Assembly: GCF_009730915.1 (NCBI RefSeq)
Contig: NC_052476.1
Location: 20,441,257-20,505,256 of the forward strand
Direction: 5' to 3'
Source: Dioscorea cayenensis subsp. rotundata
Lineage: Eukaryota; Streptophyta; Magnoliopsida; Dioscoreales; Dioscoreaceae
Length of the DNA stretch: 64,000 nucleotides
Made by a program: the position numbers and the translations under genes. The notes beneath the pieces are model-generated. The model was not told the origin of the DNA. It worked only from the letters and a program-made list of their open reading frames with translations, and made no database searches. Shown in pieces: positions 19,604 to 64,000 of this stretch; position 1 is the first letter of the stretch, and every line of letters starts with the position of its first letter.

Positions 19604-21015
19604 CTATTCTATTCTTGCAGGAACACCAACATGTTCTTCAATATCACTGGTGATTACCTCGTCATTCTCCGCCAAACTCCAGCCGGCATCCTTCCTCAAC
19701 CCCATTGCCTTCATCCTCCTCCTCAACTCCTCCGCCTCCGTCCACCTCCCCATCTCCGCGTACAAACTACCCAATACCACATAATGTGCTACATTCCCCG
19801 GCTCGATCTCCACAAGCCTCCTCGCCGCAAATTCACTCAACCCCAAATCTCCATGAGCTCTACTCCCCTTCAACAAACACCCCCATATAGCCACATTTAC
19901 CTCCCAAGGCATCCTCTCTACAACCTCCACCGCCGCGCCGATCATCCCTGCTCGACAAAACATATCAACCATGCATCCATAGTGTTTAATCCCCGGCCGG
20001 AAACCATACTTCCCTTCAACCATCAACCGAAACAATCTCCGGCCCATCATAATCATCCCTGCATGACTACAAGCAGAAAGCACTCCGACAAGCGTCACCG
20101 GATCCGGCCTCACTCCCTCCTCCTCCATTTTCAAGAACCACATCAAAGCTTCATCCCCGCATTTCACCATCGCCATCCCTCCGATCACCGAGTTCCATGT
20201 CCACACATTCTTCTCAGGCATTTCATCAAACACCTTCACTGCATCCTCAACCCTCCCACATTTACTATACATATCAACCAGTGAAGTCCCCAGCACTACG
20301 TCCAACACCCACCTACTTCTTCTCACGTAGTTATGAATCCACACGCCCATTTCAACCGCGGCGCTCGCCGCACAAGCGGCGAGCGCGTTCACCATCGTGA
20401 CCCGGTTCGGTGCCACGCCAGCAAAACTGCATCCTTTCAAACATGATCAGTGCTTGGTTGAGCTTGCCGTTGGTTCTGTACGCCATGATCATGGTGCTCC
20501 AAGCCACAACTTCTCGGCTTGGCATTTCGTTGAACACCTTCTCGCAACACTGGAGATCGCCACAAGATGAGTAGAGATTGAGGAGGGAGTTGAGAACGTA
20601 AATGTCGGTGGAATGCGCGGTCTTGACGGTGAGGGCGTGGACAGTAGTGCCATGACGGAGGAGACGGAGGTGGGCGAGAGGTTTGAGGACGAGAGGGAAA
20701 GTGTTATGGTTGGAAAGGGAAGGAGGAGGAATGGGAGAGGGAGAAGGTGAGGAGGAGAAGGTGAGGGAGGTGGAGAAGGGAGAGGGAGTGGAGGAGAGTG
20801 TTGGAGAGGAAAGGGTGAGGAGGGTAGCGAGGGAGGTGGCGGAAGAGGAGGAGGGAAGGGGAGAGGAGACGGAGAACGGTGGTGGAGGTGGTGATGAAGG
20901 AGGAGGAGATGGTGGTGTTGAGAAGGAGGTTTTGGCGAATGATTTGAGCTTGGATTTGTGAGAGTTGGGATGTGGATTGTAGCCTTGATAGTGCATGTAG
21001 GATTCTTTGGGACAT
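19604..21015 (-). CDS. E-type PLS pentatricopeptide repeat protein, intronless, with two one-base frame breaks
   Basis: PPR proteins bind organelle RNA; E-type members usually act in C-to-U editing in mitochondria or plastids. The frame starts MSQRILHALSRLQS at 21015. Blocks typical of PLS repeats follow: LNSLLNLYSSCGDLQCCEKV, NEMPSREVVAWSTMI, GTSLVDMYSKCGRVEDAV and VLSACSHAGMI. The E region runs WGCLLKGSRAHGDLGLSEFA to YAEMGRWTEAEELRRRMK, and the stop is at 19604-19606. About 470 codons. The protein is spread over three frames: the first shift is near 20700-20712 (before NTFPLVLKPLAHL) and the second near 20423-20427, a TTTT run between FERMQ and AGVAPNRVTM. Each looks like one extra base. 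It may be a recent pseudogene or carry consensus errors. No DYW domain. Confidence 0.88.
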
Positions 21016-21053
21016 TGATGGATTGAGAGAGTTTTAGGTTTAGGGACTTGTGG

Positions 21054-21080
<27 letters not shown>
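21054..21080. repeat. (TA)n microsatellite upstream of the PPR gene
   Basis: About 13 uninterrupted TA units, roughly 40 bp 5' of the PPR start codon on the minus strand. Confidence 0.95.
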
Positions 21081-21087
<7 letters not shown>

Positions 21088-21448: not shown

Positions 21449-22015
21449 AGTGTTCTGCACCATCATGGGTTTTATGAATAATAATCACATTATAATCTTT
21501 TGTAATTTTTTAATCACATCTGGCAAATCTGATTTACAACATCCTACTGGATTTTTTTTTTCTTAAATCAACCAACATATGGTTTTTCACGGCAAGTATA
21601 ATTCTTATCATTGTTTTTTTACTGTTACTTGTCTTTTATGTACACCCTTGTCTTTTATCTCTTCTATGTCTTTTTTTTCTTAATTTTTTCTTGTTTACGG
21701 ACGTTTTCTATTATCATCACCCTTCTCTTTTATCTATTTTATCATCATATATATATATATATATATGATAATGATATATCTTGATATATTGATTTTTTAT
21801 TTTTTTTACAAAATAGACAAACTACTGTCAAGCTATTACATGAATCTGTTTTGGGTATGCCACACATCCTCACAGAGGACTTTGCTTACTCAGAAGAATG
21901 AATGTTTTAACAATTGGGCTAGTATGAGGGATTAAATTTTATATAATTTTTTCTACAATTAATAACATAGTTTTTATGAGTATAAAAGTAACAATTAATC
22001 CCTCAAATTTGAAAT
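21449..22015. other. AT-rich spacer without recognised features
   Basis: Poly-T tracts and an (AT)n run at about 21747-21767. No gene, RNA or transposon was recognised. Confidence 0.5.
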
Positions 22016-22282
22016 TGTTGAAAATAAAAGACTTTACAACCATCATCAAAACTTTTTGCACGCTTCTTTGAAAACATGAGAGAACTCCTAAAATTGAAGA
22101 AACGTTTAAAACCGGTGATATTGATGTTTGATTAGCTAAAAAAAAAAAAAATTAAAATGTTGAAAATAAAAGACTTTACAACCATCATCAAAACTTTTTG
22201 CACGCTTCTTTGAAAACATGAGAGAGCTCCTAAAATTGAAGAAACGTTTAAAACCGGTGATATTGATGTTTGATTAGCTAAA
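22016..22282. repeat. 142-bp-period direct duplication
   Basis: The segment 'tgttgaaaataaaagac' to 'tttgattagctaaa' at 22016-22140 is repeated at 22158-22282. One substitution was noticed (agagaactcc against agagagctcc), with an A-run between the copies. The near identity points to a recent tandem duplication beside the tRNA gene. Confidence 0.95.
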
Positions 22283-22351
22283 AAAAATAAATAAATAAAA
22301 ATAAAATGTCTAACAATTTTAAAATAATTTAATCTTTATCAAAATAATAAT

Positions 22352-22372: not shown

Positions 22373-22443
22373 TGCGCATCCGGGGAATCGAACCCCGGTC
22401 AGTACCGTGGGAGGGTACTATGATACCACTACACCAGATGCGC
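22373..22443 (-). tRNA. trnG-CCC: tRNA-Gly(CCC)
   Basis: 71-nt cloverleaf on the minus strand. The acceptor stem GCGCATC pairs with GATGCGC, with discriminator A. The anticodon stem GTACC/GGTAC encloses the loop CTCCCAC, so the anticodon is CCC. The T arm is CCGGGG TTCGATT CCCCGG. A box TGGTGTAGTGG and B box GGTTCGATTCC are intact. There is no intron and CCA is not encoded, as expected for a nuclear tRNA. It decodes GGG glycine codons. Confidence 0.97.
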
Positions 22444-23080: not shown

Positions 23081-23224
23081 GGCCACGGCAAGGTGCTAGA
23101 TATAAACAACCCAAATTCGCAGCCTTGCGATCTTTCCCCATTCTCCTCGCCGGCAAGCTTGAAGCAAAGCTCTCCGTTCTTCTCCTTCGATCTTCGACGC
23201 GTGCATCCTTCTGTTGATATCCAG

Positions 23225-23605
23225 GTATTGCTCTGATAGCCTCTTGCTCAATGGCCAAACCCTAGAATTTTTGGTTCTGGATGTGTTTGGTTCTGCGTGT
23301 GTGCTTTCAATTGTTGTTTGATGAGATTGTAAACCCTAGAAATAGTGGTTGTGCATGTGTTTTTAATCGTTTCTTGATGAGATTGTAAACCCTAGAAATA
23401 ATGGCTCTGGTTGTGATTTCAGTCGTTTTTTTTATGAGATTGTAAACCCTAGAAACAGTGGTTGTTGATGTGTTTTTAAATTTGTTCTTGACTAGAGCGT
23501 AAAATTTAGAATTGGTGGTGTTTTTTTTTAAAAAATTTTGTTCATGTTTTTGGGTTCGTATCTTCAGTTCATTCCTTTGAAGATGTTGATGTTTGTGTGC
23601 ATTAG
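23225..23605 (+). promoter_or_regulatory. 5'UTR intron of the helicase gene with a tandem repeat carrying four teloboxes
   Basis: A GC-richer leader exon (about 23080-23224) ends CCAG|gtattg. The acceptor attag is at 23605, and the start ATG follows 8 nt later at 23614. Inside, a 56-74-bp unit (gagattgtaaaccctagaaa..gtggttgt) is repeated. The string aaaccctag, a telobox, occurs at 23257, 23331, 23387 and 23444. Teloboxes near plant transcription start sites bind TRB/TBP-like Myb proteins in known cases. A regulatory role here is inference. Confidence 0.75.
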
Positions 23606-23613
23606 GATCAAAA

Positions 23614-35334
<11,721 letters not shown>

Positions 35335-45291: not shown

Positions 45292-47359
45292 TTAATATGT
45301 CGATGCAGTTGACATCCTCTGTTGACCTCCTAGGAGGATCACCATAACTGTTACATCATCGTGATACTTTCTTCTCATTCCAGAGGGCACCCTCATAAGT
45401 TCTTCCAAAGTAAAACCTGAAAAGAAAGGAGAATGAAACAGAGTAGTTTTTAGTTATCCATGCCACATTATGATTTCAGTATCGGCATTGTTACTGATCA
45501 ATTACAGGGGGACTCAAAGGATGTATCTCTGTTACTTGATATATCTAATATCAGATATTTAGATTTATAGAATTTATGCAGATAAATAGTGATACCTGAG
45601 CTAATCAAATTTTCATTCGGAATGTTGAATAATTTAATTTGAAGCCATTACAATAAAGTCATACATTAATTTCAATGATGAACAATTGTTTGCTACTGAT
45701 TATCTCAATAACTTGATTACATGTACGAGGAATGATGATCACACTCAGCGAATTTCATTAATGGTGAATTTCGAAAATAAGTAATTGAATATGCATTCAT
45801 TTGTAGAAGTAGGAATGAATAACTCTGGGCTTTGCTTTTCATACACATACCTGCTTTTTTAGATGCTCTTAATACGAGTTGCTCCACTATAAACTCCGCA
45901 GGATTACCTAATGGACTACTTATGACAAAGGAACTAACAAGTTCTACAGCTTCTGCATTGCTGAAAAAGTCAAATAGGCCATCACTAGCCATTAACACAA
46001 AGCGATCGCCGGTTGAAACTCTATGGAATTTGAGTGACGGTTCAACAGAAATATAAGGAGGGCTTGAGAGGTTTGAAACTCGAAGAATTCCCATAAGAGC
46101 TTCATTCATGTTCTTCTGCAAATAACATGAAATGCAGCCGATAAAACATTAGGCAATGATTGTGTAGAATTTTAAAGAATAAAATCTGAAGAAATAAAAG
46201 ATCTTTTATTCGTATTACCTTCTTCAGATAACCTACTCCAAATGCCCGAGTTAGCTTCAACTTTCCTTTCACCTTTCCATTTACAATTGTTTTAGGATCA
46301 TCAGGGTGTTCAGATATAACTCGCATTCGTTCAATTTCATTATCAACAGAGTGGCATTCAGTGAGTTGGATAGCTTCCAATACTTCATTGTTATAGTTCT
46401 CAGCATCTCCAATTGTTGCTAATACAGCTCTGCTATCACCTAAGCTGAGAATAAAAAGGTCCTGTTGATGAAGGAGCGCAACCAGAACACAAGAACCGAT
46501 CGAAACTAAATCAGGACGATCATCCATTTCTTGCTTGACCATGTAAAGGAAATCACTTTCAGCCTGTGCAAGAGCATGTTGGAGACAATCAAGAACACCA
46601 TCCTTGTAAGAATCAAATGGCGCTTTTTTTATACACTTTGTAATTGTCAAGTCATTCATAGAGCTATGAATTGAGGGCATCTCTTCAGCAAGACCAATAT
46701 CTTCATATTCAAATAACCCATCTGTCTCAATGCCATGCTTCAACTGTGAATTCAACACATTCAAATGCAATCCAATATTCTCATATAAAGTTCCGGCTAG
46801 AAAATCAGCGGCGTCTCTTCCATTGAATCCATCATATATTGCGCAACAAAGCCATCCATTTTCTTCAGAACAAAAGGCTTGAACTCTATCTTCACCAGCT
46901 GCTCCACCAGCCAATTGCACTTCCCTCGCATTGAGAAAACCATGACTTCTTGCAGGAGCACTTGTCGGCTTTTAAAGCATTCAGATTCCATTCTGAACAA
47001 TCACTCTGAGAAGATAGGCATCCATTATACTGCAAAGAAGATGATAATATATCTGAACTTGATAGTGATGGCGAAGACGGTACTTTCCTGAACGTCTTCG
47101 GCGAATCCAAACAAGGCAATAATCCTGCTCCTATAAGACCATGGCAAATATTTGTGTTTGCTAGAGTGCAATTAGCACTCACAGCAGCACAAGTTAGCAA
47201 AGAAAATGAGCTCTTTCTTGTAATCTTCTTCATTTTTCCCAGTCCTTCAAATGATGCATCTCCGAAACCATTATTCGGATGTCCTTCATTCACAGTGCAT
47301 TGGTAGCCAAAACTAACATTAAATTGCCCATCAGCATCTGAGAGCAGTTTGTTCAACAT
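45292..47359 (-). CDS. PP2C-family protein phosphatase, POLTERGEIST-like, 3 coding exons, one frame break
   Basis: Mg/Mn-dependent Ser/Thr phosphatase; POL/PLL members act in meristem signalling. Coding exons on the minus strand: 47359-46219, 46115-45851, 45416-45292. A non-coding leader exon ends at 47822 and a UTR intron spans 47821-47389. About 509 residues from ATG 47359, which follows an in-frame stop. Motifs: LAGGAAGEDRV, YDGFNGRDAADF, GSCVLVALL, LGDSRAVLAT, HPDDPKTIVNGKVKGKLKL, TRAFGVGYLKK, MASDGLFDFFSN and RRKYHDDVTVMVI, supplying the metal-binding Asp residues. The first exon is 1141 nt, one base too long: the frame shifts within the AAAA (plus-strand TTTT) run at about 46970-46973, between NLNALK and RSHGFLNAREVQL. 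Downstream junctions are in phase. Confidence 0.93.
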
Positions 47360-51924: not shown

Positions 51925-52390
51925 TAGAAAATATGAAAAATTTCTCATTACCCCAATAAAGTCAATACTTCATGGTGGAATTAGAGAAATTATGAAAAAT
52001 TTCAAATTACCCCAAGAAAGTCAAGACCTCAAGGTGGAATGAGAGAAATTTATAGAAAATATCTTGTTACCCCAAGAAAGTCAAGACTTCAAAGTGGAAT
52101 GAGAGAAATCGTTACCCCAAGAAAGTCAAGACTTTAAGGTGGAATGAGAGAAATTATGGAAAATTTCTCGTTACCCCAAGAAAGCCAAGACTTCAAGGTG
52201 GAATGAGAGAAATCAGGAAAATTTCTCGTTACCCCAAGAAAGTTAAAACTTCAAAGTGGAATGAGAGAAATCAGGAAAATTTCTCGTTACCCCAAGAAAG
52301 CCAAGACTTCAAGGTGGAATGAGAGAAATTATGGAAAATTCCTCGTTACCCCAAGAAAGTCAAGATTTCAAGGTGGAATGAGAGAAAATT
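51925..52390. repeat. 58-bp minisatellite, 8 copies
   Basis: The unit contains 'ttaccccaagaaagtcaag', 'acttcaaggtggaatgagag' and 'aaat.atggaaaatttctcg'. Copies begin near 51948, 52007, 52067, 52112, 52171, 52229, 52287 and 52346; the unit is usually 58-60 bp with one 45-bp copy. The final copies are the most alike. Confidence 0.95.
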
Positions 52391-53876: not shown

Positions 53877-54880
53877 ATGGCATCTAGTTCTTCATCTACA
53901 CCAACACCAGATATCTCTTATGCTTACTGCCAATTTTCAAAGGAGAAGGATATGAACACTGGAGCTTTAGGATGAAAACTTTTTTCATGTCCTAGAGGAT
54001 GTGGAAAATTGTAGAAGAGGGTTTTAGTGAAGAGAAGAAGCCAACTGAGAAAGAGATGGAAGATGATGCAAAGGCTTTTTTCTTGTTGCAACAAGCAGTT
54101 GATGAATCAATTCTTCACAAGTTGGTGAGGTTTGAGACAACAAAAGGAGCTTAGGATCATTTAAAGGAAGAAAATCAAGGGAGTTCTCGGATGGTTTCAG
54201 TAAGACAACAAACATTAAGGCAGAAATTTGATTTACTTTAGATGAGGGAAGATGAATCAATTCAACATTATATTACAAGTGTTTTGGCAGTGGTGAATCA
54301 AATTAGAGGTATGGGAAGTGAATTAAAGGAAGTTGATGTAGTTTTAAAGGTTATGAGGAGTCTATCTACAAGATTTGTGCATGATGTGACCTCTATTGAA
54401 GAAGCTAGAGATTTGAAGACAATGACTTTGGATGAATTGAGTGGGTCTTTACAGGCTCATGAGGCAAGATTCAATCAGATTTTTGAGAAACATGAGGGTT
54501 TTGTAGTTCAATATAATTCAAGAGGTGGTAGAATGAGGGGATGGGGAAGAATTTTTAGAGGTAGAGGAAGATTTGAAGATAATTCTAGAGGAGGAGGTGT
54601 TCAAAGGCAGGTTGTGCAACAACAAAGGCAGCAATTTCCTACTGATAATAATACATGGCAGAGAGGCAGAACTAGTTCAAGTCCATTTGGAAGATTTTCA
54701 AGAGGTCAAAGGCAGTTTGGTGGACAGAGATTCAGTGAGGAGGTTTACAGAATATTCAGTGCTTTAACTGTAAGAGATATGGGCACACACATGCTCATTG
54801 TTGGTCACAAAACAGTAATTTTGAAAAGGGTTCTAGTTCTAATTTTCAAGATGATGCAAGTACTAATGAAGTGGAGGTGA
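53877..54880 (+). pseudogene. Copia gag remnant (UBN2-type capsid, zinc knuckle)
   Basis: Starts MASSSSSTPTP at 53877. At least three in-frame stops or shifts lie before 54242 (for example near 53992 and 54239), then an open stretch 54242-54880 covers the rest of the capsid-like domain and an Arg/Gly-rich linker. The CX2CX4HX4C zinc knuckle, at about 54751-54792, is in a different frame from that stretch. Not functional as written. Confidence 0.85.
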
Positions 54881-54889
54881 TGATAGAGT

Positions 54890-56188
54890 TATTTCCTCAC
54901 TTTGGTTGCTGGATAGTGGATGCTCAAATCATATGACAAGTGATAAAAATTTATTTCACAGTTTGGATGAATCAGTGAAGCACACAGTGAAATTGGACAA
55001 TGATAGAGATGTTGAGGTGTTAGGGAAAGGATCAATTCTGGTTATGATGCAAGGAGTTAAAAAGCTGATTCACAATGTAAAGTATGTTCCTCAGTTGGCT
55101 CACAATTTGATTAGTATTGGGCAGTTGACAACTTGTGATTATGAAGTTATATTCAAGAAGAATTGGTGCAAGATATTAAATGAAGCAGGTGAGTCAGTGT
55201 TAATTCTTCACAGAAACATAAATAATTTATATCATTTAGAATTCTCTTTAGATTGTGAGCAAGTTAATCTAGTTAGTAGAAAAGAGGATGTATCCTTGTT
55301 ATGGCATCAAACGATATGGGCATTTAAATTTTCAAGGTATGCAGAAGCTAGCACAGAGGAAATGGTGATGGGTCTGCCTGAAATACAGAAAGTTAGTCAT
55401 TGTGAAGAGTGTGTGTATGGAAAATTGGCTAGATTGCCTTTTAATTCTAGAAAATCATGGAGAGCTAGGAGCATGCTTCAGTTGGTTCATGCTGATGTGT
55501 GTGGGCCAATGCAAAATGAAGCAATTGAAGGGGGTAAATATTTCTTGCTGTTTGTGGATGATTTTTCTAGGATGTCTTGGGTGTATATATTGAAATTTAA
55601 GCATGAAGTCTTCAGTAATTTTCAGAAATTCATGTCACTTGTTGAAAGGCAATCGGGATGTAAATTGAAGATCCTTAGAACAGATAGAGGGGGTGAATTC
55701 ATATCAAAAGAATTTCAAGACTTCTGTCAAGAGAAAGGCATAAAGCATGAATTGACAGCTCCTTACACACCTCAGCAAAATGGCATTGCAGAGAGGAAGA
55801 ATAGAACTTTGGTGGAGAAGGCAAGGAGTATGTTGAAAAGTCGGGAATTTGCCAAGAAGATTCCAGGCTGATGCAATTACTACTGCGACTTATGTTTCTA
55901 ATATTTCACCAACTTATGCGATTCGAGGAGAACTCCACATGAGGCATGGGTTTGAGGGTGAAACCAAAGGGTATCACACTTGAGAATTTTTTTGGTTGTA
56001 TTGCTTTTTGTTCATTCTCCTTTCTGAAATTTGCAAAAAGTTAGATGATAGAAGCGATGAAAGTGGTCTTTATTGGCTACTGTACTGATGCTAAGGCATA
56101 TAGAGTTCTGGTGCCTGATTCTGGGAAAATTCTGATCAACATGGATGTAAGGTTTGTTGAAACAAATTTTTGGAAGTGGTGCGAGAGT
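54890..56188 (+). pseudogene. Copia pol remnant: protease and integrase
   Basis: Open from about 54906 to 55871. The aspartic protease active site LDSGCSNHMT is at the start. A pre-integrase region follows with a disturbed zinc-binding part (LWHQ present, following residues altered). The integrase core D, D, E is in HADVCGP, LRTDRGGEF and NGIAERKN. A frame break at about 55860-55871 is followed by remnants in other frames (a second open stretch from 56045) that run into the N gap. Confidence 0.88.
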
Positions 56189-57188
56189 NNNNNNNNNNNN
56201 NNNNNNNNNNNNNNNNNNNNNNNNNNNNNNNNNNNNNNNNNNNNNNNNNNNNNNNNNNNNNNNNNNNNNNNNNNNNNNNNNNNNNNNNNNNNNNNNNNNN
56301 NNNNNNNNNNNNNNNNNNNNNNNNNNNNNNNNNNNNNNNNNNNNNNNNNNNNNNNNNNNNNNNNNNNNNNNNNNNNNNNNNNNNNNNNNNNNNNNNNNNN
56401 NNNNNNNNNNNNNNNNNNNNNNNNNNNNNNNNNNNNNNNNNNNNNNNNNNNNNNNNNNNNNNNNNNNNNNNNNNNNNNNNNNNNNNNNNNNNNNNNNNNN
56501 NNNNNNNNNNNNNNNNNNNNNNNNNNNNNNNNNNNNNNNNNNNNNNNNNNNNNNNNNNNNNNNNNNNNNNNNNNNNNNNNNNNNNNNNNNNNNNNNNNNN
56601 NNNNNNNNNNNNNNNNNNNNNNNNNNNNNNNNNNNNNNNNNNNNNNNNNNNNNNNNNNNNNNNNNNNNNNNNNNNNNNNNNNNNNNNNNNNNNNNNNNNN
56701 NNNNNNNNNNNNNNNNNNNNNNNNNNNNNNNNNNNNNNNNNNNNNNNNNNNNNNNNNNNNNNNNNNNNNNNNNNNNNNNNNNNNNNNNNNNNNNNNNNNN
56801 NNNNNNNNNNNNNNNNNNNNNNNNNNNNNNNNNNNNNNNNNNNNNNNNNNNNNNNNNNNNNNNNNNNNNNNNNNNNNNNNNNNNNNNNNNNNNNNNNNNN
56901 NNNNNNNNNNNNNNNNNNNNNNNNNNNNNNNNNNNNNNNNNNNNNNNNNNNNNNNNNNNNNNNNNNNNNNNNNNNNNNNNNNNNNNNNNNNNNNNNNNNN
57001 NNNNNNNNNNNNNNNNNNNNNNNNNNNNNNNNNNNNNNNNNNNNNNNNNNNNNNNNNNNNNNNNNNNNNNNNNNNNNNNNNNNNNNNNNNNNNNNNNNNN
57101 NNNNNNNNNNNNNNNNNNNNNNNNNNNNNNNNNNNNNNNNNNNNNNNNNNNNNNNNNNNNNNNNNNNNNNNNNNNNNNNNNNNNNNNN
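56189..57188. other. assembly gap, exactly 1000 N
   Basis: An unbroken run of 1000 N, a placeholder length. The sequence linking the Copia element to the inverted helicase copy is unknown, and so is the true distance. Confidence 1.
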
Positions 57189-59860
57189 AAGCCACAAAAC
57201 CCACATAAGCAATGGAAAAATTTGGAAGCCGAAAGTTGTTAAAGACGTCATACTTGAATCTTTTGGAGTGCAGATTTTGCAGCTAACATCTTCAGGAGTC
57301 TCGCCATCCAATGCATCTTCATACTGCATGAATACATATCTAAGATCAGAACAGCATTCAGGAGATAACAACCACAGCAAATGTAAGAATCAAGGGAAAA
57401 ATGTTTTTATGTCTTTCCACCTGAACACCATCCATAACAAATTCCTTGATGAAGTCAATCCCATCCTCAAAAACATACCTAAATGAATAACCCAAAGAAA
57501 AATGCTCCTGTTAGTAACTATCAAGAGATGAAAACGCATATGCTTGAAAAATAAAAAAGTTTTGGCTGATAAACTGTACCAAAACCCGAATTATGTTAAA
57601 AGAGACATAAAATGTGATTACATGGAAAATAAACAGGCAAAAAACGCAAAACACATCATGGTGACAGGAAAACAAAGAATAAAATAGTATGTGAAACTCA
57701 CTGATAATCATCCACTGCTTGTTTTTTGTTCTTAGAGCCAAACAAACTTTAGGGTTGCCCTACCTGCAATAACAGAAATTATTACTTTGGATTGTGCAAA
57801 ATATAAAACTGTTTAACAATGAGAAAAAAGACTAGCCATAGATAATACCGATTTGGTTTTCTTCCCATGCTTCTTGTTCTGCAAACGGATTCATTTTATC
57901 ACCCACAGAAGAATCCCTGATTGAAGAAAGAAATTATTCAGAAACATTCTAGAACAAATGTAAATCAATAGCATGTAACTAAATTGAGTTACATATACCA
58001 TACAGACAAAGACAAAGGATAAGGATGGTGCCAAAAAAAAGGAGAGAGAAAAAAATAAAAAAGTGGTATGTTTCTGGCAAGGTGAAGAAGACAATCACTA
58101 TATCAAGTTCACTCACTTGTACCCCTGCACAGCAGCAGCAAATCTTTTCTCTTGATTTACACCCCCCTCTTGATCATATGCATCAGGCATCCTATATATA
58201 CTGCCCTTGTTTTATCATGAGAAACAAAATGTTGTTATGATCATATAAATAAACAAAAAGGCCTTAACATGTAGAAATTCTAAAAAGATAACAATTAATA
58301 GAAACAATAATATAAAAAATAAGCGATTTACAATATCAAATCATAAGGTTTGCTTATTTACAACATAAAAAAATATAGCTATACTAATCATCCACTGATG
58401 TTTAGAATGAAAAACCCAATCGTTAATTGCATAATCATATTACGAAATATTACCAATTACCACTTTACTACATAAAAAATTTATTTCTAACTCAACAAAG
58501 TCCCCTGTGAATTATCATAAAATATATATGGAAAAAAAACCTTTGGAATCAGAAAAGAAGTGCACGTGGCATAGGTCAGGGATATACTAAAGAGAAACAA
58601 TCTGAAGTCCTTTAAACACCAATTATAGCGAGCAATCCACTTTCTTTACGAACTGAGTAACAGGTGATGGAAATGATACAGAAATTAATTCCTCATCAAT
58701 ATAATATCAGACATACTACACAAAAATATAAAACCATCAGAAGATCATTCCATGCAGCAGCACCAGCTAGTGGAATGAAACAGGAAAAGAGATTATGGGG
58801 AAAATTTGCCAAAATAACAGAGTAGAAATTGCTGCAAAACAAATGAACATAAAAGGAGTAATAACTATATGAACAAAGAGGAGATATTCATTACCTCATC
58901 AATATCATCTAGATTTTCTACATGCTCTTTTGCAAGCTCAAAAATTTGTTTCTTGTACCTATACACAATAAACCAACCAAACCTAAACAAATTAATCAGA
59001 TGCACATAATGGAGTGGATCACCAAAAGAAAATGAAGAAGAAGAATATAAGAAAAGGTCGCCAAATAGGTAAAATGAAAATAAAAAAATAAATGCAACTC
59101 TCTAATTAAAAGATAAAAGTGAATGCAGTAAATCATTACCTAAACTCGCGCTCTTCTGCTTCTGTCAACTTAACACCCTCAAAGAGATACTCATGGTCTA
59201 TAATATCATCCCTGGGATGGGCAAGTCATTTTAAAAATTTAGGCATTATTTAAGAAAAATCGGTGGGATAAAGAATTTGTATTGATACAAAACTGCAACA
59301 TATGATGAAAGAATAATTTACAGAAAGTACACCATACCGCAGTCCATACCGCAGCTCCAAAAGCTTCTTCTCTCGCCTTTTCTGCAAAATACATTTGTCT
59401 CGACACCACTCTGATACATCAATAAAACAAGATATAGCCATAATTCAGGTTTGCATAAAAATGCTCGTACAAATAATAAGCAGAGGTGAGTTATTCACAG
59501 GAGCAACAAGTCTATTTATTGAAAAAAAGCTTACTTATTCATTAACACATATAAACCCTTGATGTGATTATTTTGGACAAACCTGAGATGCCAGGAGTAT
59601 AGGGAACTTACACAAAGCAATTCCACTAGGAAGCTTGGATAAACTCAAATCAAATATATTTCCTTTGCATATTTGTACTTTAGGTCATTACTCTTTATAA
59701 ACTAATGCAAGGTGAGGGAGAATTACATTTCAAGTAAGAGAGACTAACATTTTTAGAATCCCCCAATCTAATAGGAATTAAAGAGATAAAAGGTTCAGGT
59801 GGTAGTAATTTGGTATTTCAACTTGTGAACCAAACATCCAGCCAATAACTTCCATAAACA

Positions 59861-60188
59861 TTAGGGGTGTATTCGGTCGGGGGTTAGATGGTAGGGTTAA
59901 GATTTGAAAGCTTGAAATTGTTTTAAGGAGAAAACTTTTAAATAGAATTGACCCAACTTTGACTTAATTATTAATAATCAAAATAAGTATCTTAGAATTA
60001 AAATTTTACCTTTTTAAGTAATAGTAGTTGTTTATTAATGGTGCCAATTTTTAAAATTAACTATCAAATATATTTATTTGAAGAAAAAAATCTCGTAGAA
60101 AAAGCTGGGTGGGGTAACCTGCTGGTGTTTGGTTGGAAACTTAGGGTGAACTTGGGACACCTTGGGGTAACCCAACAACCAAATATAG
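59861..60188 (+). mobile_element. MITE-like element B, copy in the helicase pseudogene
   Basis: Counterpart of the intron 7 element of the intact gene. It begins 'ggggtgtattcggtcggg' and ends 'ccaacaaccaaatatagc', and it retains a block 'ggttaagatttgaaagcttg' that the intact gene's copy lacks. Its presence in both copies shows the insertion came before the duplication. Confidence 0.45.
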
Positions 60189-62044
60189 CATAGAGACTTG
60201 CAAAACACATCTTTTTCTTTTACATTAAAAATTTAAAACAACATGTTGGCATTTGACAATTTAAAATTTTAAGTTGGTGATCTTCCAGAAGCAGAACATC
60301 TAACGCAACCATTTCTTTAAGGTGATCTAACCCCATATGGGAAAGAAACTACTAACAAACATTAAAAACTAGGCTTCATGAGCAAGAACCTTAGATCTGA
60401 AGTGTCGTCTTGCTCCATAGCTGCAGATCTTCGAATCATCTCCTCTGCAGCAGCAGCAACTAACTGGTAAGTATTTATCCGAAAGCCACATAAAAACAGA
60501 CATCATGAAAACCTCACCTTCCTCCTTCGAAACCTTGGATTCCATCAACTATTGAAGAAGCACAAAGACAATTAAAAGAATAGTCACATCAATCAGGATC
60601 AAGAAATCAACGACACGTCTTCTTAAAGAAAGGAACAAAAATGAACAAACAAATAAATTGCATGATAAGATAAAGAAAAGTTGAGGGCTTCATTTGGCTA
60701 CTAAACCTCTCTATATATTTTTCTACTCTAAAGCGTTCAATTTTGATTAGCATTAGTGATGAACTCAACAATGCCTAATTACTTGGATAATTATGTCTCT
60801 GTTTTGAGTTTTTTTTTTCGTTTTTAATTGTTTTAAATTAGTTAGTGATAAGTTTATTTGGAATAAATTATCCTTCAAATAGAATTAAAATCTCTCCATC
60901 TAGGAGTTTAGCCGCATGAGGAGGTACATTTAATTTATTCTATTCACAGCTCAATTAGAGAGAACTATTAAATAAATTCTTGTGAGGGAGAGACTCGCAT
61001 TCCTTGATAGCAAGAGACTATCCATATCTTACCTTAGTTCTGTCAGGGAAAATTCACAAGCTCTAGTCAAGGGTCTGTGAATTGGGCGGCATCAATCAGA
61101 AGGTTAAAAATATAGACATGGTAAAAGTACTTCGGTGTATGAGACTAGTTTGAAAAATAAGCAAACATTACAACCTTTAGATCCTCACCCACAAAATAAA
61201 TAAATAAATAAAAAGAGCATTCAATATCTACCGGAAATAATTGTATGAACCGTGAGGTGACAAACAAAGGATTCAACTTTATTAAAAAATGAAGAAGGTA
61301 AGTTGGCTCGTGATAAACTTGAAAATAGGTTATTAGATATATCTTGGTAACAAGCTAAGAAACTCCTTCCAAAATATTACAAACTAAGGAATTTGTGTGC
61401 CTAGAAGTTGGACTGATATTTTTATATTTAGACAAGGAATTATTCAGAAGCAGTAACTTGTTTTTGTCATCATTATTCTAATAGAATAGTCAATGATTCC
61501 TAAGGTAAAATCCATCTTATTCTTTGAACCATTACAATCCACTCTAGTCATTTAGACCAAGATGGTTGTGGTAATCACTAAATCAACACTGTTGAAGAAC
61601 AAATTATACTTATTTTTCAACAACTAAAATGTATGTTACTTTTCTTCTAAACAGAGGATTTGGTTATATTGAACTGCCTCTAGTCTTGCACACATGTACT
61701 CATGTTCTATCTTCGACCAAAGAAGGGATCAACATGATAAGTTAAAAAATAAAAATAAAATTGAACTTCATTTGTCATTGAAGTACCTTCCGAGTTCCAG
61801 CTGCATCTCTTTCTCTAATATTCCTTTCCAGTTGCTCTCTTGCTTCTTGATCACGTATTCTAGCTGCTTCTGACTGCAGAAGGCCAAAAAAATATTAAGT
61901 TAGGTAAAAGCAATGGTACTTGCATTTTAAGACCATCAAAATTAAAAATGATCCAGTAACATAGTAACATAGCATAATAATCAGCAAAAATATCAATTTA
62001 AAGGAAAGGCAACAGATAAAATATTCCTCAATTAATATAGTAAA

Positions 62045-62345
62045 TCTTTAAAAAGACCAGGTAGTGGGGTCACCCCAGGTTACCCCAAGGCACTGACCAT
62101 ACACCCCAAAGTTATCTTGCTAACATTTTTTGGTAAAGTTTAATTATATAAATAACTTTCTTTATTAATTAATTAAAAAATTTATTAATATTAATTTAAA
62201 AAACAATCAATAAATTTTAAATTGCAAAACAAAAATTTGTTTTGATTAGTATTAATCAAGTCAAAATTTGGTGAATTCTAAAGAAAACCCTTTCCTGCAA
62301 AACCATTTCAAGCTTCCAAACTTTTTAGCCCTGCCATTCTAACCT
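62045..62345 (-). mobile_element. MITE-like element A, copy in the helicase pseudogene
   Basis: Counterpart of the intron 4 element, inverted with the rest of the duplication: 'tcaccccaggttaccccaag' at the left and 'agccctgccattctaacc' at the right. Differs from the intact gene's copy by small indels. Confidence 0.45.
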
Positions 62346-63351
62346 ATAACGAATCATACAGTGGTTGTCGGTGCAAACAGGATTATCCCAACAAACTACA
62401 ATCATACTCACAAGACGGTGCCCGTAAGGGCAAACTGCCATCTACATAATCTCTTCGCTCGTGATTATACTACATGTGCAATGCTTTATAAACACATAAG
62501 CAGATGCTTTAGCTTTCTATAGTGCTTTTGAACTTTTAAACATTGATCAAACAGATAATATACAAACCCTGTAGCATTGAGGAAAAAGTATAATTTGTCT
62601 TTACATATTATGAATTGGCACACAGTCAACTTAACTCTGACCATTCTTCTATAAAAACAAGTTTCCAAGTAAAAACAACTAAATAAATAACTTAAAATGA
62701 ACCACCAAATACATTATCATATAATAGTACACTTTCAATCACAACAAAATAATAAACACAAAAATAAATAATATAAGGTACCTCACTGTCATTATCGCCA
62801 TCATCAACCTCAGAAGTACGGCTTCGAACTTGGCGCCCAACATCTTTGCATGTAGTCACCTAATGCATAGCATAAATCAAAAGAAAATCAAGTACCTGAC
62901 AACATAGGACTGAATGACAGCTAACCATATGAAAGGGAAAGTGCTATGAAGGAAAACACCATGCCTCATCATCTTCATCATCTTGGGTTTCATTTTTCCT
63001 CCTAAAACGCTTTCTATGGGACTCTTTTTTTCCAGGCTGAGAAGCTGCAGAGGTGGCAGTTACTGAGCCAGCTCCTTCATCATCGTCATCATCAGCATCC
63101 AACAATTTGTAACTCATTTGCTTCTTTGCAAACAAAGCTGCTTCTTTTTCCTGTCTTTGGTAATCCTGGATCAAGTAGAAAATATGTAAACCTAAGGATA
63201 TACTTAACAATTAAAAAAAGAAAGCACCAAACTATCACAGTTTGTAATCAAAGTACCAAATAACTTTTGCAATTTTAAGAGCCTTTGACATGTAACTTGG
63301 AACAGATTAATGTACCTTTTCTAAACTGATTGCAAGCATAACCATCATTAC

Positions 63352-63780
63352 ACGGATACGCGGTCGACACGGTCGGACACCGTATCCGACACCCTCTCAT
63401 ACGATTGGACACCTCTCGACATGCCTGGGCACGGCCGAACTAGATTTTTGCAAAAGTTCGGGTTGAGATTTTCGCCGGCATGAGGCTTGTAAGAGGATGA
63501 AATTGAGGTGATGAGAGGTGGAGCATGATGACAAAGACGGCAACTGCGAGGGTTCGAGGGAGGGGCTTTATGAGTCTCTACGCGCGGAGGTGACGAGGGC
63601 TATAGAGGTGGAGGAGAGGCGCTGCGCGCGGCGTTGACGAGGGCTCGAGAGGTGGTCCGGTGGTGTAGAGGCGCCACGCGGGTAGGTGACGAGGGGAGGG
63701 TTGGAGACAAGGAGAGGCGAGGGCGGCTCATAGGGTTCCAAGCCTTTTAACATCTTAGGGTTTCTCCACAAACATCAATC
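63352..63780. other. GC-rich block with short palindrome and GC minisatellite, abutting the duplication breakpoint
   Basis: GC content rises sharply at the exact end of the helicase homology. It opens with 'cggatacg' and its inverse 'cgtatccg' about 20 bp apart (63353-63389), amid repeated cgacac/ggacac steps. From about 63575 to 63700 a unit containing 'ccctcgtcac' and 'gcgcgc' (minus strand) recurs about three times. The minus-strand ORF 63771-63568 runs through this and is Pro/Arg/Ser-rich, with no recognised domain. It could be a transposon end, captured gene 5' region or 5'UTR; I cannot tell. Confidence 0.5.
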
Positions 63781-64000
63781 CTGACCGTTCGTTTATTATT
63801 ATTTTTTTTAATTTTGTTTGCAATTTATTTTTTTAAATATTTATTATAAGATATTATTAAGTGAAATTTCAAATTTAAATAACAAATTTAATATTATTAT
63901 AATTATACATTATATTATATTATATCATCATTTATTTTTAAATTAAGGAAGTGATATTTGATATTAGTGTATTTACTATTGCTATGTCAATGTTGATGAC
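63781..64000. other. AT-rich sequence to window end
   Basis: Abrupt return to AT-rich DNA with poly-T and 'attatatt' steps. No feature recognised. Confidence 0.5.

Follow-up and report, generated by a model that had tools for sequence, protein, structure and literature searches.

An inverted, intron-bearing copy of a PRP2/DHX16-type helicase gene with a disabled reading frame, in a cluster of partial copies in Dioscorea cayenensis subsp. rotundata

Previous studies described duplicated plant pseudogenes that keep their introns, are disabled and lie close to a functional parent, and in rice some pseudogene-parent pairs yield complementary small RNAs (PMC2708354). For FOLT1/FOLT2 and TAD3 of Arabidopsis, studies have demonstrated small RNAs together with a methylation-linked silencing of the parent gene (PMC5257005). 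Human DHX16 is tabulated as corresponding to Prp2 of yeast and ESP3 of Arabidopsis, the Arabidopsis counterpart also carrying the embryo-lethal name EMB2733 (PMC2709443), and ESP3 restrains post-transcriptional silencing (PMC12259633). Here, we analyzed a stretch of 64,000 nucleotides of Dioscorea cayenensis subsp. rotundata (the window, C6:20441257-20505256), which holds an intact DEAH helicase gene of this type (the parent) and an inverted copy of it (D1). We examined 264 kb of C6, the window and 200 kb downstream, in which positions above 64000 carry the window numbering on past its end (the continued window), and genome-wide searches took in the 584-Mb assembly of 2249 contigs.

D1 shares with the rice duplicated pseudogenes (PMC2708354) its introns, its disabled frame and its closeness to a functional parent; the locus differs from them in that the only complete parent found is accompanied by six clustered partial copies, namely D1 and, downstream on C6, C5, C3, D0, D and Dr (Table 1). 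As in the FOLT and TAD3 systems, extra copies of an important gene are present, those of FOLT2 being rearranged and partly truncated (PMC5257005), and here too the extra copies are partly truncated and the gene is otherwise found once; in contrast, the copies lie on the chromosome of the parent here and on another chromosome there. We consider it likely that D1 is a duplicated (non-processed) pseudogene of the neighboring PRP2/DHX16-type gene, which was made at the DNA level, is decaying and takes part in gene conversion.

The parent gene and the structure of D1

The frame of the parent model was open over 1055 residues with no internal stop, and residues 1-1051 aligned to residues 1-1035 of human DHX16 with 1209.9 bits, a full-length homology that includes the DEAH core. 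The exon boundaries were set by hand, and the exon order was taken partly from the Arabidopsis protein and then verified against DHX16. This full-length match is the likeness of the parent to ESP3, DHX16 and Prp2, and the difference is that the yam assembly shows one complete gene among the candidates scored. Indeed, in a protein search of the assembly (best 44 of 217 candidates, 57 rows), exon 21, which encodes most of the helicase core, was matched at 98% by the parent only, with the next match at 61%, and pieces of exons 18-20 were matched at about 90% by copy D. The DNA query 32475-35334 returned the parent and 43 other matches at 66-81% (44 rows from the best 40 of 180 candidates); 42 of the 43 fell at query positions 1870-2413, inside intron 24, in a segment that looks like a dispersed repeat, and the remaining one (C7:640936, query 394-927, 67%) was a distant helicase exon. 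Only the parent matched exon 21 closely among the scored candidates, and no second complete gene of this type was thus found; a candidate ranked lower may have escaped scoring, although a near-identical copy would be expected close to the top. Among the top-ranked papers of a literature search, no account of copies of the helicase gene at this locus was found.

The self-comparison of the window gave 24 matches, the longest of which paired 23969-30103 with 63352-57189 (6204 columns, 95.6% identity), and the second longest was a 348-base tandem repeat. The original prediction of an inverted copy of more than 6.1 kb, bearing exons 3-15 with their introns and still near the parent in sequence, was therefore confirmed by the alignment of the reverse-complemented 57189-63352. 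All 13 exons and the introns of the parent model were present in D1, and 13 acceptors (AG) and 13 donors (12 GT, 1 GC) were the same in both, intron 3 being modelled with the GC donor in parent and copy alike. Two intron repeats, possibly MITEs, occur in both D1 and the parent and are therefore older than the duplication. A processed pseudogene was ruled out by the retained introns; introns and flanking non-coding DNA were copied and the reading frame was disabled, as in a duplicated pseudogene. Four frame-breaking indels in exons 8, 11, 13 and 15 had been proposed and were recovered as +1, +4, +4 and +1, and they lead to stops when the frame of the parent is read; three in-frame indels (exon 4 -9, exon 6 -3, exon 8 +12) had been missed, making seven exon indels in exons 3-15.

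The D1 contig covers 57189-112520 of the continued window. Since 57189 is the first base after a gap of 1000 N, the visible 3' end of D1 in intron 15 is the start of a contig and not the end of the duplication. Five gaps were present across the 264 kb, every one of exactly 1000 N, and the length of the gap beside D1 is thus probably a placeholder. The predicted inversion at a distance of 22 kb (35334 to 57189, gap counted) holds as assembled; the gap had gone unmentioned, and both distance and orientation depend on the scaffold join across it.

At the other end, the match to the parent stops at 63352 because an 868-bp insertion begins at 63353, and the supposed natural start of the copy within intron 2 was not supported, the visible limits being set by this insertion and by the gap. 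The insertion (63353-64220) stands in place of parent 23871-23968, a segment across the boundary of exon 2 and intron 2 that includes the donor. Its first 648 bases, the part within the window to which the search was confined (the last 220 being left out), gave 56 rows genome-wide including itself and thus at least 55 other places (best 40 of 64 candidates), and 17 of the 56 rows, that of D1 included, began at the first base of the insertion, as the end of a repeat would. A short-word comparison of the insertion ends for terminal inverted repeats gave a longest match of 9 bases, and no target duplication was seen. Beyond the insertion, 64221-64938 contains 67 of the 131 bases of exon 2, all 100 bases of exon 1 with the ATG and no substitution, and then the 5' flank, in which the homology reaches parent 23126, with scattered pieces to 22909; this flank alignment runs through 56-bp tandem repeats and is possibly partly misaligned. 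The earlier claim that the copy has neither promoter nor start thus did not stand, as exon 1 with its ATG and a 5' flank, with a putative promoter, sit just past the window.

A tRNA-Gly(CCC) gene, the sole find of Rfam (at gathering thresholds) and ARAGORN over the window, lies upstream of the parent, and a tRNA-Gly(CCC) at 66594-66663 of the continued window matches it in place and orientation relative to D1, the segment being 79% alike. A similar segment recurs at 88166-88458, so a separate origin of the tRNA gene beside D1 is possible. Past the tRNA, the flanks of the parent and D1 share one 309-base match at 83.5% (20784-21081 to 74555-74251) and short ones. The upstream flank of D1 mostly matches copy D and not the parent. 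The flanks of the D1 and D contigs align over about 8 kb in total, with 69-91% identity, in pieces scattered over 67223-82158. Beside the tRNA-Gly of the parent, a 142-bp tandem duplication was observed at 22012-22302, about 1.3 kb upstream of the ATG.

Substitutions and sequence exchange among the copies

Between D1 and exons 3-15 of the parent, 18 of 981 exon sites (1.83%) and 150 of 5115 intron sites (2.93%) differed (P 0.055), and the exon changes comprised 10 nonsynonymous ones (781 sites) and 8 synonymous ones. With assumed omega values of 0.1 and 0.2, the nonsynonymous changes expected were 12.6 if one copy was neutral and the other had an omega of 0.1 (P(<=10) 0.29), 22.9 if both were neutral (P 0.002), 2.3 if both had an omega of 0.1 (P 0.0001) and 4.6 if both had an omega of 0.2 (P 0.02). 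The substitutions thus fit one neutrally decaying copy and one constrained gene, and relaxed selection on D1 is what this comparison of models with assumed omegas, together with the small polarized counts, points to. Exons had 7 indels in 981 sites and introns 24 in 5115, and exons were thus no poorer in indels (P 0.33). With D as the outgroup over 23969-29084, the intron changes numbered 44 for D1 and 45 for the parent, a further 2 being ambiguous and 30 lacking an outgroup; nonsynonymous changes were 4 on D1 and 1 on the parent, and synonymous changes were 0 on D1, 2 on the parent and 1 without outgroup, both coding classes being too small for testing. The intron divergence of 2.9% would place D1 at about 2 million years under a rate that we assume to be 7e-9 per site per year, an age not used as evidence.

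In the assembly, six partial copies lie within 170 kb, and exons 21-27 are absent from the visible part of every copy. The original prediction had one copy beside its parent; that copy is real, and five more follow further along C6. Genome-wide, parent 23126-24735 gave 8 rows, all at C6:20464382-20632544, parent 30104-32400 gave 7 rows, 6 on C6 and one elsewhere (87 bases, 81%), and the first kilobase of D1 gave 3 rows in the cluster stretch of C6. Indels of a length not divisible by three occur in exons 1-2 of D0 and, in D, C5 and Dr, in exon 3. D and Dr carry an inverted repeat within one contig, whose arms of about 5.9 kb (175627-181546 and 195471-189574, that is, C6:20616883-20622802 and C6:20630830-20636727) contain helicase exons 1-4 and are 97.2% identical, with a spacer of 8027 bp without N between them; the right arm terminates at a gap. 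Two contigs of the cluster (146148-155329 and 195471-186196) overlap in inverted order with 95.9% identity over 9.3 kb, which may reflect a palindromic duplication, alleles or misordered contigs. If the overlap were allelic, the contig of C5 and C3 would represent another allele of the terminal part of the D/Dr contig, and the six copies would become four. Because of this overlap and the five gaps of exactly 1000 N, the order and orientation of the cluster are not to be trusted without long reads. In D0, a separate observation is that 32 bases of exon 19 follow the start of exon 3 without a spacer (174330-174400), in a template-switch-like junction.

When comparing D1 with D, we observed that a tract of about 1 kb is 99% identical between the two copies, which lie 128 kb apart: 313 of 4074 sites differed over parent 23969-29084 and 8 of 1003 over 29085-30103 (P 2e-21), and the low-difference segment begins at 29036, with 0 of 1000 site shuffles as strong (the shuffles assume independent sites). 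Within the tract, D also approaches the parent, at 29 differences in 1003 sites compared with 313 in 4074 over the body; the simplest reading is that D received sequence of the D1 type, although both may have drawn on a third source. The insertions of exons 11 and 13 are present in D and that of exon 15 is absent, which places two of the frameshifts on a second contig. The tract suggests ectopic gene conversion, and its 0.8% mismatch argues against a simple re-use of identical reads. The parent and D1 likewise differ unevenly along the gene: 50 of 712 sites differed in the 5' part, and the body had 98 differences in 4074 sites (P 5e-9). The two are most alike over 24167-27138 (54 of 2953, 0 of 1000 shuffles). 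This unevenness could reflect exchange with the parent or simply a flank that changes fast and holds tandem repeats. If exchange reaches the parent too, frameshifts could be copied into it. The one copy of this core splicing gene that was found complete is thus accompanied by disabled copies that apparently exchange sequence, which calls for caution and offers a test bed.

Table 1. Features of the window and partial helicase copies of the continued window
Feature	Position	Strand	Basis or remark
tRNA-Gly(CCC) upstream of parent	22373..22443	-	Rfam, ARAGORN
Parent, intact 27-exon PRP2/DHX16-type (ESP3-type) DEAH helicase gene	23614..35334	+	Exon model, 1055 aa
Copia element (gag, Pol beta-barrel domain, integrase)	54242..55868	+	Pfam; points toward D1
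Assembly gap, 1000 N	56189..57188	.	Abuts D1 3' end directly
D1 in the window, parent 23969-30103 copied in inverted orientation (+ strand order: exon 15 to exon 3)	57189..63352	-	Self-comparison; 3' end cut by gap
D1 low-difference tract to copy D (parent 29036-30103)	57189..58256	-	8 mismatches/1052 sites; upper edge approximate
D1 exon 15, +1 A	57254..57323	-	Alignment to parent
D1 exon 13, +4 GTTT tandem insertion	57702..57763	-	Alignment to parent
D1 exon 11, +4 TATA inserted at first base	58117..58200	-	Alignment to parent
D1 exon 8, frameshifting +1 and a +12 that repeats exon end and donor in tandem	59338..59410	-	Alignment to parent
Dispersed repeat in D1 exon 2/intron 2	63353..64000	.	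Insertion goes on to 64220 past window
Copy D1	57189-64938	-	Exons 1, part of 2, 3-15
Copy C5	150309-152061	+	Exons 1-4
Copy C3	153260-155329	-	Exons 16-20
Copy D0	173289-174352	+	Exons 1-2, exon 3 start, then 32 bases of exon 19
Copy D	179794-188305	+	Exons 1-7 and 10-20
Copy Dr	189574-191321	-	Exons 1-4

Origin of D1 and its possible effect on the parent

We propose that D1 would have arisen by a local segmental duplication of the parent, from the 5' flank through intron 15 at the gap and with the introns kept, in a unit that probably took in the upstream tRNA-Gly. Insertion of the dispersed repeat would then have split exon 2 and the four frameshifts closed the frame, and D1 would have decayed neutrally since the duplication while exchanging sequence by ectopic conversion with at least one other copy. 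Presumably, D1 does nothing for the plant, and an ordinary duplicated pseudogene within an unusually active cluster is its most likely description. Several points weigh against this account. The unchanged exon 1 (0 of 100 sites, against 7.0% for the 5' part of D1 overall), though short, would fit plain neutral decay poorly; the deletion in exon 4 is also present in D, C5 and Dr and that in exon 6 also in D, so these may be changes of the parent or of a shared ancestor and need not be lesions of D1; the uneven difference from the parent means that exchange with it may have blurred the neutral test; an assembly chimera could mimic conversion, the tract being at the end of the D1 contig; and an intact 3' part may lie behind the gap.

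That the copy is real and its contig was misplaced or misoriented through the placeholder gap is doubtful, though it deserves weight, and would otherwise be compatible with a duplicated pseudogene. The start of D1 directly after 1000 N, the uniform length of all five gaps and the inverted overlap of two other cluster contigs would be expected from it; however, the flank shared with the D contig and the location, in one stretch of C6, of the copies found by these genome-wide queries make at least the chromosomal neighborhood of D1 credible. If D1 were instead a haplotig, an allele of the parent left unpurged in the assembly, there would be no duplication at all, a reading that we reject as the main explanation and regard as highly improbable. 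The gap at the boundary, the collinearity with the parent from the 5' flank to intron 15 (insertion excepted) and the 309-base match beyond the tRNA speak for it, and heterozygous plants can show an intron divergence of 2.9%. Two working alleles, however, would not be separated by four frameshifts, nor would two constrained alleles show this excess of nonsynonymous changes or exon indels as common as those of introns; further, two of the frameshifts are common to a third copy on another contig, and the upstream flank is chiefly like D. Scarcely credible is a short N-terminal protein still encoded by D1 through exon 1 and part of exon 2 into the insertion: exon 1 is unchanged and 95 codons run through exon 1, exon 2 and the insertion without a stop, but the tail would be insertion sequence, and the non-triplet indels in the early exons of D, C5, Dr and D0 argue against such a product.

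The idea that small RNAs of the cluster act on the sole complete PRP2 gene, either from D1 antisense or, more plausibly, from a hairpin of D and Dr, is improbable. RNA complementary to the parent could act if it were made, because 3345 of 6144 exact 21-mers of D1 (57189-63352) equal those of the parent; since about half are shared, short reads will cross-map, and copy-aware mapping is needed for expression and variant calls of this gene in the species. Exact 21-mers covered 920 of the 3168 coding positions of the parent from D1, 916 from D, 321 from Dr, 320 from C3, 257 from C5 and 117 from D0. The opposite, nearly identical arms of D and Dr within one contig would be a better hairpin candidate than D1, but their 8-kb spacer and the right arm that stops at a gap count against it. 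The Copia element is on the + strand and aimed at D1, so read-through from it would be antisense to D1, with the gap intervening; an open frame running from 56045 into the gap presumably represents further Copia sequence. The FOLT and TAD3 cases are precedents (PMC5257005), whereas the distance of about 22 kb exceeds the 10 kb given for the pairs in rice and, in rice grain data, antisense small RNAs came from 145 of 11,956 pseudogenes (PMC2708354). The sequence therefore allows small-RNA control of the parent, which the original prediction had offered as speculation, and does not favor it. A reading of the cluster as a locus of self-targeting silencing, in which D/Dr foremost and D1 second would supply small RNAs directed at PRP2/ESP3, is very improbable on these data; since ESP3 of Arabidopsis restrains silencing, such a locus would close a feedback loop between the copies and the silencing machinery and have a latent role in hybrid incompatibility. 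If small RNAs do arise from the cluster, it would be a natural test of truncated copies silencing an important gene.

Other features of the window

The gene content of the window, in keeping with a plant, includes a BIRD-IDD zinc finger, a PPR and the Copia element. Next to a PP2C-domain frame (46105-46971), the segment 47048-50140 has a direct copy at 89041-92442 of the continued window, 87-90% identical, and a tandem repeat of about 59 bp in 8 copies occupies 51926-52387.

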